Origin: an uncultured Saccharospirillaceae bacterium
GTDB lineage: Bacteria > Bacteroidota > Bacteroidia > Flavobacteriales_D > CAJJDF01
Direction of reading: 5' to 3'
NCBI GenBank assembly: GCA_950054195.1
Contig: CATLPG010000011.1
Location: 1 to 64,000 of the forward strand
DNA length: 64,000 bases
Shown: positions 55,240 to 61,187 of the stretch, one piece after another
Layout of the letters: every line of letters begins with the position of its first letter
Numbering within the stretch: the first letter of the stretch is position 1
Notes under the pieces: generated by a model
The model's database searches: none
What the model was told of the DNA's origin: nothing
Seen by the model: the letters and a program-made list of their open reading frames with translations, nothing else
Program-made: the position numbers and the translations under genes

Positions 55240-56898
55240 ATGAAAAAATTATTTTACTCTCTTATTTTAATACTATTTATTTTTTCAGCTTATAGTCAAG
55301 AAAACTATCTGAAAGGAGAAGTTTTAGTTATGCTTAACAAGGATGTTAAAGCAACAACTTTTATAGAAAGTTTGAATCAAGAAACTTCATACGATTTTTC
55401 TTTAGTAGAAAACCTATCTAAAAATTTAAATATTGCTAGAATGTCATTTGATGTAGCTTATTCAAATGATGAAGTATTAGATTATTTATTTAAACAGGAA
55501 GAAGTTATAAATGTTCAAAATAATCATACAAATGTAGTGTTGCGAGATAGCTGTATAAACGACAGTTTATTTGCTTCCAATCAATGGGCATTGGAAAATA
55601 CAGGGCAAACAGGCGGAACAATCGATGCTGATATTGATGCTTGTGAAGCTTGGAGTTTTTATGCACCTGACGATCAACCAGATTCTACAGCTTTAGGAGA
55701 TGAGATTGTAGTAGCAGTGATTGATGCAGGATTTGACTTAAATCATTCGGAACTTAACTTTTACACAAACAATCAAGAAGTACCAGGCGATAGTATAGAT
55801 AATGACGGGAATGGTTTTATAGATGACGTAAGTGGATGGAATTTTTATTCTGGCTCAGGTAATGTTACACCTGTTGCTCATGGTATGCATGTAAGTGGTA
55901 TTGTTGGAGCAAAAGCAAATAATGGTACAGGGGTTTCAGGAGTTGCTCCAGGTGTTAAAATTTTACCTGTTCAAGGATCTTCAACACTTGAGTCTATTGT
56001 TATTCAATCGTACGATTATGTACTCACGATGAGAAAGTTATATGATTCCACCGATGGAGCAAAAGGAGCATATGTTGTTGTTACTAATTCTTCCTTTGGT
56101 GTTGATTTTGCTTTTGAAAGTGATGTCCCTCTTTGGTGTGCATTTTATGATAGCTTGGGGAAAGCAGGGATACTAAATGTTGGAGCTACAGCTAATGCTA
56201 ATAGAGATGTTGATTATTTAGGAGACATTCCCTCTCAATGTTCTAGTGATTATTTGATTATGGCTACTACTACAAACAATAATGATATGAAAACAGCAGG
56301 AGCAGCCTTTGGTGACACTACCATTGACATTGGAGCTCCAGGAGTTGCTATTTTGTCAACGGGAGTTTCTAATGGTTTTTATACTTCATCTGGCACATCA
56401 ATGGCAGCACCATTTGTTGCTGGTGCAATTTCTTTCATGTATGCAGCAGCTTGCGAAAATTTCATTAATAGCTATCAGCTTAATCCAGACAGTGTAGCAT
56501 TAGCTGTTAAAGATTTTATTTTGAATAATGGTGACCTCAATACCTCCTTAGAAGGAATTACCTCTTCAGAATCTAGATTAAATGTATACGAATCAGTTAA
56601 TGCATTGATGAGTAGTGGTTATTGTGTATTTACAGATATAGATGAAACTAAGCATAAATTCAGTTTAAAGTTATATCCCAACCCAAATCAAGGACAGTTT
56701 ACTTTAGAATTAACTTCTCTTGATCAAGAAAGTAAATATGTAACGATTTACAATAGTTTAGGAGAGGTTGTGTATAATGAAAGTACATCTAACAAGTCAA
56801 TATCTATAGATTTACAGCAGAAACCATCAGGTGTTTATTTTTTATCTGTACAAAATAATCAAGGTAAAATATATTCTACTACCTTTATAGTAGAATGA
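55240..56898 (+). CDS. Secreted subtilisin-like (S8) protease with T9SS type A sorting domain
   Basis: 552 residues. The signal peptide ends AYSQ (residue 20). An inhibitor-like propeptide (about 22-100) precedes the S8 domain, whose catalytic triad is Asp162 (VAVIDAGFD), His214 (HGMHVSG) and Ser387 (GTSMAAP). The C-terminal 80 residues are a type A (Por) sorting domain: LKLYPNPNQGQFTLEL, VTIYNSLGEVVY, LSIDLQQKPSGVYFLSV-type ending. It is exported by the type IX system. The stop overlaps the next gene by 4 bases (ATGA), which links the protease to the copper-like operon. A TATACTTG -7-like element lies at 55214-55221 without a good partner. Confidence 0.92.
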   Translation: MKKLFYSLILILFIFSAYSQENYLKGEVLVMLNKDVKATTFIESLNQETSYDFSLVENLSKNLNIARMSFDVAYSNDEVLDYLFKQEEVINVQNNHTNVVLRDSCINDSLFASNQWALENTGQTGGTIDADIDACEAWSFYAPDDQPDSTALGDEIVVAVIDAGFDLNHSELNFYTNNQEVPGDSIDNDGNGFIDDVSGWNFYSGSGNVTPVAHGMHVSGIVGAKANNGTGVSGVAPGVKILPVQGSSTLESIVIQSYDYVLTMRKLYDSTDGAKGAYVVVTNSSFGVDFAFESDVPLWCAFYDSLGKAGILNVGATANANRDVDYLGDIPSQCSSDYLIMATTTNNNDMKTAGAAFGDTTIDIGAPGVAILSTGVSNGFYTSSGTSMAAPFVAGAISFMYAAACENFINSYQLNPDSVALAVKDFILNNGDLNTSLEGITSSESRLNVYESVNALMSSGYCVFTDIDETKHKFSLKLYPNPNQGQFTLELTSLDQESKYVTIYNSLGEVVYNESTSNKSISIDLQQKPSGVYFLSVQNNQGKIYSTTFIVE

Positions 56899-57275
56899 TT
56901 AAACTTGTTCAATTAGGAATAGCTAGTTTATTAATCATTTTTTTATTTAATCTATTCACTCCCAGTGGTATTTGGTTGAATTTTAAAATGAATCAGTCAT
57001 TCATTGCTAAAAATCTTTGTGTAAAAAAAGAGATTAAAGAAAACACATGTAAAGGAAAGTGTCATCTTAAAAAAGAGCTAGAAAAAGTTCAAACACAAGA
57101 AAATCATCAAGATAAAGAGCCTTCTTTCCCAGTAAATACGTTAGATCATTTATTTAATCAAACGGTTGAAAAGTTTAACTTTTTAATTGTGAGAAGAATA
57201 AATTCTCACCACAATAAGACCTTTAACATACTTAAAGGTTTTACCCAAATCACAAATCCACCACCGCAAGTTTAA
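56895..57275 (+). CDS. Small membrane protein with CxxxxxxxxCxGxC-type motif, copper-operon associated
   Basis: 126 residues: one membrane helix (about 6-25) and then a periplasmic stretch with three clustered cysteines in the pattern LCVKKEIKENTCKGKCHLKKEL (about 42-63, shown in two parts: LCVKKEIKEN and TCKGKCHLKK). The rest is charged and His-containing. Short proteins with this NxxFIAxNLCxNK..CxGKCxLKK pattern occur, as I recall, beside metal-related genes in Flavobacteria. The four-base overlap with the protease and the following barrel/MbnP genes suggest metal handling, but no function is established. Confidence 0.65.
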   Translation: MIKLVQLGIASLLIIFLFNLFTPSGIWLNFKMNQSFIAKNLCVKKEIKENTCKGKCHLKKELEKVQTQENHQDKEPSFPVNTLDHLFNQTVEKFNFLIVRRINSHHNKTFNILKGFTQITNPPPQV

Positions 57276-57336: not shown

Positions 57337-58287
57337 ATGAGCAACTCTATTTTGGTTGTGTTCGTTTGTATGTGTGTAGAGCTAATGGCTTGTGATATAT
57401 GCAATATGGACATCAACCTGATACCAGAGAATAATAAAAATACACTTTCGCTTACTTACAGAAGTAGATTTACTTCGGGAAGGTACAATGCATTTGGTAC
57501 AATGATGGAAAGTCCGTACCGTATGTTTATGCACACAGGGCCACAGTCAAGAAATCATTACAATAAAACGGTGAATGAAGTATTTGAAGTGTATACATTA
57601 AGTGGAAATTATTTCGTTTCTGAGCGTTTAAATATAAATGTCCGTTTGCCATTCTCTCATAATGTACAGTATATGGATAACCAAAAAACGGTGGAAACAC
57701 ATGGTGTTGGTGATCTAATTTTATTGGGTAATTATGAAATAATCAATACCAAAAGAATAGAAAATTCTCTAACTTCTTTTCGTTGGACAATAGGAGGAGG
57801 TGTTAAACTTCCTCTAGGAAAATGGAACCATAAAAAGGAAGAAGAATTTCTTGATATTGATTTACAAAACGGAACAGGTAGCACCGATGCAATACTTACT
57901 TCTGAATATACGTTGAGGTATAATAAAGTAGGAATGTTAGTTTCAACTAATGTTAAATTCAACACAACAAATAGCAGAGGCTATAAGTATGGTAATTCAT
58001 GGAATCAGCAACTAACATTATTTTACTTACAAAAAATAGGTAAAATAAACGTAATGCCTCATTTGGCTTTGTATCATGAAATAGCAAGGCAAGATGTTGA
58101 AAATAAGCAGCTATTGTTACAAAGTGGAGGGGAGGTAATGCTTGCTTCTGGTGGACTAAATTTGTATTTTAATAAAATAAGAATTGATTTTACCTACCAA
58201 CACGGTGTAAGAAATAATTTAAACGGAATCACACAATTAAACACAACACATCGATGGTTAACAGGACTTGTTTACTATCTAAATTAA
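57337..58287 (+). CDS. Predicted outer-membrane barrel/transporter-like protein with N-terminal Cys motif
   Basis: 316 residues with a short signal peptide followed at once by ACDICNMD (about 18-25), a Cys-x-x-Cys motif of the kind seen at the mature N-terminus of barrel proteins next to MbnP and copper genes. The rest is strand-rich (SLTYRSRFTSGRY, NYFVSERLNINVRLPF, RWTIGGGVKLPLGKW) and ends WLTGLVYYLN. Between the small Cys-motif gene and the MbnP gene, it probably serves metal or metallo-protein traffic across the outer membrane (inference from context). No exact family is named. Confidence 0.72.
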   Translation: MSNSILVVFVCMCVELMACDICNMDINLIPENNKNTLSLTYRSRFTSGRYNAFGTMMESPYRMFMHTGPQSRNHYNKTVNEVFEVYTLSGNYFVSERLNINVRLPFSHNVQYMDNQKTVETHGVGDLILLGNYEIINTKRIENSLTSFRWTIGGGVKLPLGKWNHKKEEEFLDIDLQNGTGSTDAILTSEYTLRYNKVGMLVSTNVKFNTTNSRGYKYGNSWNQQLTLFYLQKIGKINVMPHLALYHEIARQDVENKQLLLQSGGEVMLASGGLNLYFNKIRIDFTYQHGVRNNLNGITQLNTTHRWLTGLVYYLN

Positions 58288-58342: not shown

Positions 58343-59110
58343 ATGAAAACAATAAATAAATTTTTAGGAATAGCACTTTTACTTAGTTTGTTTATTATAG
58401 GGTGTAAAAAAGAAAAAGCAGATGATCCTAAGGATGAACATGATCATCACCATTCTGATGGAACAGGAACAGTTTCATTGGCAACTACTTTTAAGGTAGG
58501 AACAAATCCTTATTCAACAGATTCAACTTACACGAATGGATTTGGAGATGATTATAAATTTACATTTGTTCGTATCTATCTATCAGGATTTAATTTAACG
58601 GATCATGATTCTGTTGAGCAAGCATTACCAAATCAGTACCTATTGGTTGATCCTCAAACAAGTTCTTATGGCTTAGGAACAATAGATGCTGGTCATTACC
58701 ATGATTTCAACTTAACGATAGGTATTGATAGTGCTACTAACCATTCAGATCCTAATACATATCCTATTGAAAGCCCATTATATCCACAATCACCAGCTAT
58801 GCATTGGTCTTGGAACTCTGGATATATCTTTTACAAGTTAGAAGGAGTTGCTGATACTAACAATGATGGTACATTCGAAACTACTTTTTCTTATCATATA
58901 GGAATGGATGCGCTTAAACGTCAAGTATCTAAAACTATTCATAAAGACGTGATGAAAGATCAAGATAACCCAATTCAAGTAACTATTGATTTAGGAAAAT
59001 TCTTGACAAATGTTGATTTTGAAACCGAGAGAACTACGCATACAATGAATGATATGCCTTTGGCTACAAAAATTGCAGATAACGCTGTTACAGCTATTGA
59101 GATACAATAA
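58343..59110 (+). CDS. MbnP-family copper-binding lipoprotein
   Basis: 255 residues. The signal peptide ends in the lipobox IIGC (Cys21), followed by an acidic His-rich linker (DEHDHHHSDG). The MbnP core has the pattern FTFVRIYLSGFNL, YLLVDP, AGHYHDFNLTIGID and the hallmark MHWSWNSGYIFYKLEG at 153-168. MbnP proteins bind copper through a kynurenine made from Trp by the diheme enzyme MbnH. The only Trp residues here are Trp155 and Trp157, so one of them must be the target if the chemistry is conserved. Two diheme enzyme genes follow directly. Confidence 0.9.
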   Translation: MKTINKFLGIALLLSLFIIGCKKEKADDPKDEHDHHHSDGTGTVSLATTFKVGTNPYSTDSTYTNGFGDDYKFTFVRIYLSGFNLTDHDSVEQALPNQYLLVDPQTSSYGLGTIDAGHYHDFNLTIGIDSATNHSDPNTYPIESPLYPQSPAMHWSWNSGYIFYKLEGVADTNNDGTFETTFSYHIGMDALKRQVSKTIHKDVMKDQDNPIQVTIDLGKFLTNVDFETERTTHTMNDMPLATKIADNAVTAIEIQ

Positions 59111-59116
59111 TTAAAA

Positions 59117-60130
59117 ATGTCACACAGGAATAAATATGTATTATTTTGTATTCTTGTGTGGCTATTTTCTTGTTCACAACCGAAGAAAGATGTAAAAGAT
59201 AAGCCACATACATTTCACATCCCTGTAGGTTTTAAGCATCCAGATCTTTTAGGTGTTGATAGCATAACTGATTTTAAAGTTAAGATTGGAAAGCGTATGT
59301 TTTTTGATAAAAACCTATCAAGTACAAAAGAGCTTTCGTGTGCATCTTGTCATATTCCTAGTCAGGCTTTTTCGGATACGATAGCCATTAGTGATGGTGT
59401 TTTGGGTAGAAAGGGATTTAGAAATGCTCCTAGTTTGGCAAATGTAGCCTACCAACCAGTTATGTTTGTTGATGGAGGATCTCCAACGATAGAAATGCAA
59501 GTTGTAGCACCAATTACTGATTCGAACGAAATGAATATGGACTATTTAGAAGCTATTAACTATTTGGCAAATGATTCTATTTATCGTTCATGGAGTATGG
59601 TTGCTTATGGGAGAGTTCCTGATGCTTATGTGTTTACGCGTTCGATAGCAGCATATCAACGGACATTACTGTCGGGAGATGCTAAGTATGATCAAGTAGT
59701 GCAAGGGGATGCTTCCTTTACAGAAGAAGAGCAGAGAGGTTATGACCTGTTTTTCAGTGATAAAACGAATTGTAGTAGTTGCCATTCGGGCAATTTATTT
59801 ACGAATTACACGTATCAAAATATAGGGTTGTACACTACTTATAGTGATTCAGGCAGAATGAGAATCACATTAAATGAAGAAGATAGGGGAAAGTTTAAAG
59901 TTCCATCACTTAGAAACGTAGCATTAACATATCCATATATGCATGATGGATCAAAGGCAACTTTAGAGGAAGTAGTTTCGTTTTTTGATAGAGGAGGAAA
60001 AGATCATCCCAACAAAAGTGAATTAATTAAACCACTGCATTTAACAGAACAAGAACAAAAAGATATTGTATCATTTTTGCATACATTAACAGATAAAAAA
60101 TTTATAGAAAGACATGCGGTTAATTATTAA
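59117..60130 (+). CDS. Diheme cytochrome c peroxidase/MauG-family lipoprotein, first copy
   Basis: 337 residues; lipobox LFSC (Cys19). Two heme-binding motifs: CASCH at 75-79 and CSSCH at 219-223, and the family PYMHDG at 273-278. Aligned by spacing to Pseudomonas CcpA, the Glu corresponding to Glu114 is kept (Glu138), but the inter-heme Trp (Trp94) is Val118 (FVDG instead of FWDG), and the Met/Tyr axial-ligand position (Met275) is Phe290 (TLEEVVSFF). It lies 6 bases after the MbnP gene. The electron route or product of this copy may differ from a normal MbnH. Confidence 0.88.
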   Translation: MSHRNKYVLFCILVWLFSCSQPKKDVKDKPHTFHIPVGFKHPDLLGVDSITDFKVKIGKRMFFDKNLSSTKELSCASCHIPSQAFSDTIAISDGVLGRKGFRNAPSLANVAYQPVMFVDGGSPTIEMQVVAPITDSNEMNMDYLEAINYLANDSIYRSWSMVAYGRVPDAYVFTRSIAAYQRTLLSGDAKYDQVVQGDASFTEEEQRGYDLFFSDKTNCSSCHSGNLFTNYTYQNIGLYTTYSDSGRMRITLNEEDRGKFKVPSLRNVALTYPYMHDGSKATLEEVVSFFDRGGKDHPNKSELIKPLHLTEQEQKDIVSFLHTLTDKKFIERHAVNY

Positions 60131-61187
60131 CATATTAGTAGCACTGTTGGCTGTTTTTATGTTTAGTTGTAAAGAAAAAGAAGACAACATTACTCAAACA
60201 ACTAAACAACCTCAAGGCTATACACCAACGCCTTATCAGCTAAACTTGCCACAGCATTTTCCACAGATGCCTTTACCAATGGATAATCCATTAACAGAAG
60301 AAGGAGTGGAGCTTGGAAGGTATTTATTCTACGAAAAGAAATTGTCAGGAGATAATACCATGTCATGTGGTTCTTGTCATAAGCCAGATGCTGGATTTTC
60401 TGATGATCGACAATTTAGTATAGGAATTGACGGAATGCAAGGTAATAGACAAGCAATGCCTATTGTAAATTTAGGGTATGCACAAAAATTCTTTTGGGAC
60501 GGTCGATCTAACTCATTAACCGAACAGGCTTTGGAACCGGTTAGAGATCCTATTGAATTTCATGAAAATTGGGTAAATGCAGTAAGTGAGTTGCAAGCGG
60601 ACCCATTGTATCCGCCTATGTTTGAGAAGGCTTTTGGAACTTCTACGATAGATTCAATTTTAGTGGCAAAGGCAATAGCTCAATTCGAATTAACGATGAT
60701 TTCTGGAAATTCTAAATTTGATCAATGGATTAAGAGGGAAGTAGCTTTTACAACGGATGAGTTGAATGGATATAATCTTTTTAACGCTTTAGGAGGAGGA
60801 GATTGTTTACACTGTCATGGCGGTACATTAACAACAGATCATAGTTTTCAAAATAATGGTTTAGATGAGTTTCTTACAGATTTAGGTTTGGGAGCAGTAA
60901 CTGGAGATCCGTCCGATAATGGGAAGTTTAAAGTCCCATCATTAAGAAATATAGCTTTAACAGCACCGTATATGCATGATGGAAGATTTAACACGTTGGA
61001 CGAAGTGATTGATTTTTACAGCACGGGAGTTCACGCTAATTCACCTAACATTAGTCCAAACATGGAGTTTGCTGCTGATGGAGGGGTTAACTTAACTCCT
61101 CAAGAAAAGGTTGAGTTAAAAGCCTTCTTGTTAACGTTAACCGATACAAGTTTTATCAATAATCCAGACTTTCAAGATCCGCATTAA
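60114..61187 (+). CDS. Diheme cytochrome c peroxidase/MauG (MbnH)-like lipoprotein, second copy
   Basis: 357 residues; lipobox MFSC (Cys19). Heme motifs CGSCH at 85-89 and CLHCH at 231-235; PYMHDG at 285-290. The inter-heme Trp is present (Trp128, FFWDGRS), Glu148 matches the conserved Glu, and the axial-ligand position is Tyr302 (TLDEVIDFY), the MauG/MbnH state rather than the Met of classical peroxidases. It is therefore the better candidate for oxidising the MbnP Trp. It overlaps the first copy by 17 bases and the convergent DinB gene by 4. Confidence 0.88.
   Translation: MRLIINILVALLAVFMFSCKEKEDNITQTTKQPQGYTPTPYQLNLPQHFPQMPLPMDNPLTEEGVELGRYLFYEKKLSGDNTMSCGSCHKPDAGFSDDRQFSIGIDGMQGNRQAMPIVNLGYAQKFFWDGRSNSLTEQALEPVRDPIEFHENWVNAVSELQADPLYPPMFEKAFGTSTIDSILVAKAIAQFELTMISGNSKFDQWIKREVAFTTDELNGYNLFNALGGGDCLHCHGGTLTTDHSFQNNGLDEFLTDLGLGAVTGDPSDNGKFKVPSLRNIALTAPYMHDGRFNTLDEVIDFYSTGVHANSPNISPNMEFAADGGVNLTPQEKVELKAFLLTLTDTSFINNPDFQDPH

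Follow-up and report, generated by a model that had tools for sequence, protein, structure and literature searches.

Three consecutive genes on the + strand of the window, that is, the whole stretch of 64,000 nucleotides that was analyzed, lie in the order mbnP, E1 and E2, in direct succession. They code for an MbnP-family lipoprotein, a diheme lipoprotein devoid of the inter-heme Trp and a diheme lipoprotein resembling MbnH. E1 is an old, widely conserved partner and no decayed copy; its place in the gene order, its residues, its clade, its co-occurrence and the purifying selection acting on it are matters of observation. MbnH oxidizes a Trp residue of MbnP to kynurenine. We consider it moderately probable that the three genes form a cassette that matures the copper site of MbnP, in which E2 would be the Trp oxidase and E1 a peroxide-reactive accessory partner.

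The mbnP locus and its neighbors

The mbnP gene (positions 58343 to 59110, + strand) codes for a protein of 255 residues that matched PF20243 (E 1.2e-34; 120.3 bits, cut-off 27) and scored below the cut-off of the MbnP equivalog model TIGR04052 (49.1 bits, cut-off 140). A search of the PDB with its sequence gave no match at E values up to 1. As the first-pass annotation of this DNA had stated, the protein has exactly two Trp residues, W155 and W157, both in the stretch MHWSW, which contains the WxW motif. W155 (codon at 58805-58807), the first Trp of the motif, is the expected kynurenine site. In the MbnP proteins of E1-type loci, W155 and W157 were kept in 47 of 47 sequences, H185 also in 47, H233 in 46 and M153 in 43 of the 47. 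The conserved M153, H185 and H233 are candidate copper-site residues. At D136, H144 and H233, MbnP differs according to whether E1 is present, a difference whose significance was lost in a tree-controlled test.

Variations on this gene were seen elsewhere. Five loci (L052, L057, L066, L079 and L169) have two tandem mbnP genes, which precede the diheme genes in all of them except L066, where no diheme gene was recognized. A simple pattern found no WxW in the MbnP-family proteins of L146, L152, L156, L158, L160, L161, L163 and L165, several of which adjoin Trp-type diheme enzymes.

Downstream of mbnP, E1 (59117 to 60130, +; 337 residues) and E2 (60114 to 61187, +; 357 residues) both matched PF03150 (CCP_MauG), E1 with 157 bits (E 6e-46) and E2 with 185 bits (E 1e-54). 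Each has two CxxCH motifs, located at 59339-59353 and 59771-59785 in E1 and at 60366-60380 and 60804-60818 in E2, which places both in the CCP_MauG superfamily. The last 17 bp of E1 are shared with the start of E2, and a lipobox cysteine is present in all three products (3/3), in agreement with the initial description of two overlapping diheme lipoproteins 3' of MbnP. E1 and E2 are the only diheme PF03150 genes of the window genome; a third, weak match falls inside E1.

Two conserved operon neighbors lie upstream of mbnP, and neither product matched a Pfam or NCBIfam model. The gene at 57337 to 58287 (+) codes for a probable outer-membrane beta-barrel protein, as predicted from sequence, and its homologues were found near mbnP in 37 examined loci, the window included. 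The gene at 56895 to 57275 (+) codes for a small protein with three Cys residues, C42, C52 and C56 (C-x9-C-x-G-x-C), each of which is kept in 39 of 39 homologues, and with a C-terminal PP. The homologues lie upstream of many mbnP genes, whether E1 is present or absent, and the protein is a candidate metal-handling partner. No methanobactin genes were found adjoining the mbnP-E1-E2 genes of the window, and no methylamine dehydrogenase context was seen among the genes examined around E1 and E2.

Key residues of the two diheme enzymes

Both enzymes had 6e1c as their best PDB match, E1 with an E value of 9e-53 and E2 with one of 6e-58; this entry, named "Di-heme enzyme" in the PDB, is MbnH. The MbnH model TIGR04039 was likewise the best NCBIfam match of both, with scores of 248.3 bits for E1 and 259.2 bits for E2, below its cut-off of 362.85. 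Against the MauG model TIGR03791, E1 scored 186 bits and E2 177 bits, far below the cut-off of 443.85.

E2 has W128 (codon at 60495-60497) as inter-heme Trp, Q138, E148 (60555-60557) as catalytic Glu and Y302 (61017-61019) as axial Tyr. The assignment of Trp128, Glu148 and Tyr302 in the first-pass annotation was thus borne out by alignment with E1 and MbnH, and its view that E2 has the full residue set of an active MauG/MbnH-type enzyme stands. The degenerate copy that it offered as one option for E1 is not supported, for reasons given below.

In E1, the peroxide pocket residues Glu138 (codon at 59528-59530), Gln128 and Pro132 are present. V118 (59468-59470) occupies the inter-heme Trp position and F290 (59984-59986) the Tyr/Met position, in the same alignment columns as the corresponding residues of E2, as had also been deduced at the outset from motif spacing. 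The counterpart of F290 is the axial Tyr in MbnH (6e1c) and the Met position in the Nitrosomonas cytochrome c peroxidase (1iqc). E1 therefore lacks both the Met ligand on the second heme that marks a classical bacterial cytochrome c peroxidase and the inter-heme Trp and axial Tyr that mark an MbnH-type enzyme. W159 is the sole Trp of E1 outside the signal peptide, so that no Trp is free to lie between its hemes; with F290 in the aligned column, we found neither an inter-heme Trp nor a Tyr/Met ligand elsewhere in the protein. The AlphaFold model of E1, built with five sequences, had a pLDDT of 50, too low for use in a fold search, and the comparison rests on aligning E1 with 6e1c and 1iqc.

In MbnH, E1 and E2 alike, 15 residues lead from the Asn of the RNAPS motif (Gln in E2) to the Trp position, and because of this equal spacing V118 corresponds to the Trp of MbnH without any gap. 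A phmmer alignment that placed F117 at the MbnH Trp position by means of a one-residue gap was read as an artefact, given the same spacing. Both enzymes have Gln at +10 and Glu at +20 from the Trp position (V118/Q128/E138 and W128/Q138/E148). MauG (Trp93/Gln103/Glu113) has the same fold family and the same Trp/Gln/Glu spacing, and E2 also shares its Tyr ligand, whereas the E1 of the window has neither the Trp nor the Tyr.

The clade of Trp-less enzymes

A search for PF20243 gave matches in 93 of 100 relatives and 67 of 247 genomes sampled from the phylum, and about 140 DNA stretches were read, nearly all of them around MbnP matches. We built a tree from 158 diheme proteins of at least 250 residues, nearly all from MbnP loci of the phylum of the window, to which the sampling was confined and in which many genomes were fragmented. 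Forty-four of the 158 proteins have no Trp at the inter-heme position. E1 belongs to a clade of 42 proteins, 41 of them Trp-less and one with Trp, with a support of 98 (SH-aLRT, here and below from a quick tree search only); outside the clade there were 113 Trp proteins and three non-Trp proteins. When the Trp and Tyr columns were masked, the same 42 proteins remained on one side of a branch in two runs on an 86-protein subset, with supports of 94 and 87. The clade spans at least 14 family codes. Most of these fall in the order of the window, one lies beyond that order but within its class, and two lie beyond the class but within the phylum. A search for loci related to E1 yielded only three distant loci.

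The Trp position in the 42 members is filled by Arg (23), Met (6), Ala (4), Phe (3), Lys (3), Val (1), Tyr (1) or Trp (1), and the ligand position by Tyr (31), Phe (9) or Lys (2). The Tyr/non-Tyr state changed at least six times in the masked tree. The replacement of the Tyr by Phe came later and more than once within the clade, and the Phe of the window is one of several losses. The idea that the Arg at the Trp position substitutes for the Arg of the HDGR motif of E2 was dropped, as MbnH combines HDGS with a Trp.

The loss of two key residues in E1, and its longer branches compared with E2, are what one would see in a duplicate of E2 that is decaying and no longer has a function. That E1 is such a duplicate is largely refuted and appears very improbable to us. 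E1 groups with the E1 proteins of other genomes, apart from the E2 of its own genome, and the clade is old and common to at least 14 family groups. Its pocket and heme motifs are invariant, with Glu138, Pro132, Asp192 and the second CxxCH present in 42 of 42 members and Gln or His at position 128 in 42 of 42. In the closest genome pair, L068/L086, dN/dS was 0.070 for E1, 0.165 for E2 and 0.025 for MbnP, and it was 0.082 for E1 in L054/L171; most other genome pairs were saturated at silent sites. The values of 0.07 to 0.08 in close pairs speak against decay and for purifying selection on E1, and the earlier suggestion that E1 might be degenerate is, on all these grounds, not supported.

Partnership and possible roles of E1 and E2

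The layout of mbnP with two diheme genes recurs in related genomes, a Trp/Tyr-type enzyme adjoining E1 in 33 of the 42 loci, in the usual order MbnP-E1-E2. E1 precedes E2 in 30 pairs and follows it in 4, and the median gap from E1 to E2 is 6.5 bp (n = 30). Nine of the 42 E1 loci have no adjacent E2, so that the pair is not obligatory. The adjacency of E1 and MbnP is partly by design, because the loci were collected via MbnP. As an unbiased check, PF03150 was searched genome-wide in 13 genomes, and all 11 of the 11 recognized E1-type genes adjoined an mbnP, the one in G289 being counted through a truncated MbnP match at a contig end. An aromatic residue (Phe or Tyr) at the Trp position was found in 4 of the 9 unpaired E1 proteins and in 1 of the 33 paired ones (Fisher p 0.005), a hint only because the three Phe cases are closely related. 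A literature search turned up no account of MbnP operons in which a Trp-less enzyme is one of a pair, a weak negative as the main MbnP/MbnH papers were outside its coverage.

The presence of E1 alone beside MbnP in nine loci might mean that E1 and E2 divide the labor by substrate, each processing its own MbnP or its own Trp. In G156 and G329, the sole diheme gene linked to MbnP is E1, which fits such a division even though each genome also has an unlinked WQEY enzyme; the tandem mbnP genes fit it as well. However, the window genome has a single MbnP with a single WxW, and the MbnP residues that tracked E1 did so only before correction for the tree. We regard this division as quite improbable.

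The MbnP/MbnH pair has been described in Methylosinus trichosporium OB3b (PMC3621798). The window resembles that system in having a WxW MbnP beside a diheme CCP/MauG enzyme, E2 aligning with MbnH at the Trp and Tyr, and differs from it in that a Trp-less second diheme gene sits between mbnP and the MbnH-like gene. The CorA/CorB and MopE/SACCP pairs of methanotrophs also combine a copper protein that has a kynurenine copper site with a co-transcribed diheme peroxidase-like gene (PMC3912023), but one diheme partner is described there versus two in the window. Neither CorA nor MopE shows marked sequence similarity to MbnP (PMC3621798).

In a cassette that matures the copper site, MbnP would be the substrate and W155 the kynurenine precursor, while E2, with its Trp, Glu and Tyr, would act like MbnH as a peroxide-driven Trp oxidase. 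E1, with an intact peroxide pocket on its first heme, would be heme loaded and able to react with peroxide. The E1 of the window would be unable to make the charge-resonance bis-Fe(IV) state of the MauG/MbnH type. Beside E2, it would act on the same MbnP in an accessory step, be it a second oxidation, the handling of peroxide or of an intermediate, or electron delivery, and MbnP, E1 and E2 would presumably be in physical contact.

Two known systems offer analogies. BthA of Burkholderia (PMC6405878) has Ser257 between its hemes, yet it forms bis-Fe(IV), and the Y463H substitution abolishes its near-infrared feature while peroxide reduction is retained. As described there, BthA resembles E1 in the lack of an inter-heme Trp, the conserved Glu (Glu277) and the +20 distance between the Trp site and the Glu (Ser257/Glu277). 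It has kept the Tyr ligand, which the E1 of the window has lost, and no MbnP partner was noted for it. Thus, loss of the Trp need not mean inactivity, since BthA with Ser still forms bis-Fe(IV). By analogy, a high-valent diheme state could remain accessible to most E1 members, in which the Tyr is kept; the E1 of the window, in which it is lost, probably forms no such state and may still be peroxide reactive. PA2077 and PA2078 of Pseudomonas aeruginosa are a tandem diheme pair performing successive steps (PMC4496055). Like E1 and E2, they are adjacent paralogues, one with an inter-heme Trp (W251) and the other with Ser (S243), but they are about twice as large, act on fatty acids and have no copper protein. 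Because of these two analogies, we favor an accessory, peroxide-linked step for E1. Among the degenerate partner, the electron relay and the differently acting enzyme initially put forward for E1, the last is our preferred option.

The main rival is that E1 is a redox-silent or electron-relay subunit, its hemes only passing electrons or the protein only docking MbnP, in a complex with E2, which would carry out the peroxide chemistry alone. This is a serious if rather less probable proposal, as an E1 without the Trp and Tyr could be a structural or electron-transfer subunit only. The inter-heme Trp is lost, the axial Tyr is also lost in 11 of the 42 members, and E1 adjoins E2 near-constantly with short gaps; moreover, the known reaction of PA2078, the nearest analogy to E1, proceeds without need for its hemes (PMC4496055). 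A pure relay, however, would not need the pocket Glu and Pro (42/42) or the Gln/His (42/42), and it would have no neighboring E2 to serve in nine E1 loci.

Going further than an accessory step, the Trp-less clade might constitute a second class of catalysts among the diheme enzymes that modify MbnP, carrying out a different peroxide-dependent modification. Many of its members have Arg or Lys at the inter-heme Trp site. We consider such a class unlikely; if it did exist, two dedicated oxidases would build a doubly processed copper site.

Among the questions about MauG-type enzymes, what the inter-heme Trp does is a central one. Here, Trp and Trp-less versions are paired in one operon with one substrate in many genomes, and the Tyr has been lost separately in several lines. 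These natural pairs provide ready comparisons for the requirement for the Trp and Tyr and for the assembly of a kynurenine copper site of the Bacteroidota type.

A few enzymes depart from the two common types. The sole member of the E1 clade with a Trp, L059 4769, adjoins a normal E2, and its Trp is possibly the ancestral state. In two E1-type enzymes, L049 5731 and L064 3962, the Tyr-ligand position holds a Lys with a Met after it (FKM), and the heme ligand is possibly a different one. Outside the clade, the MbnP-linked Trp-type enzymes of L143 and L145 have Phe at the Tyr position (WQEF).
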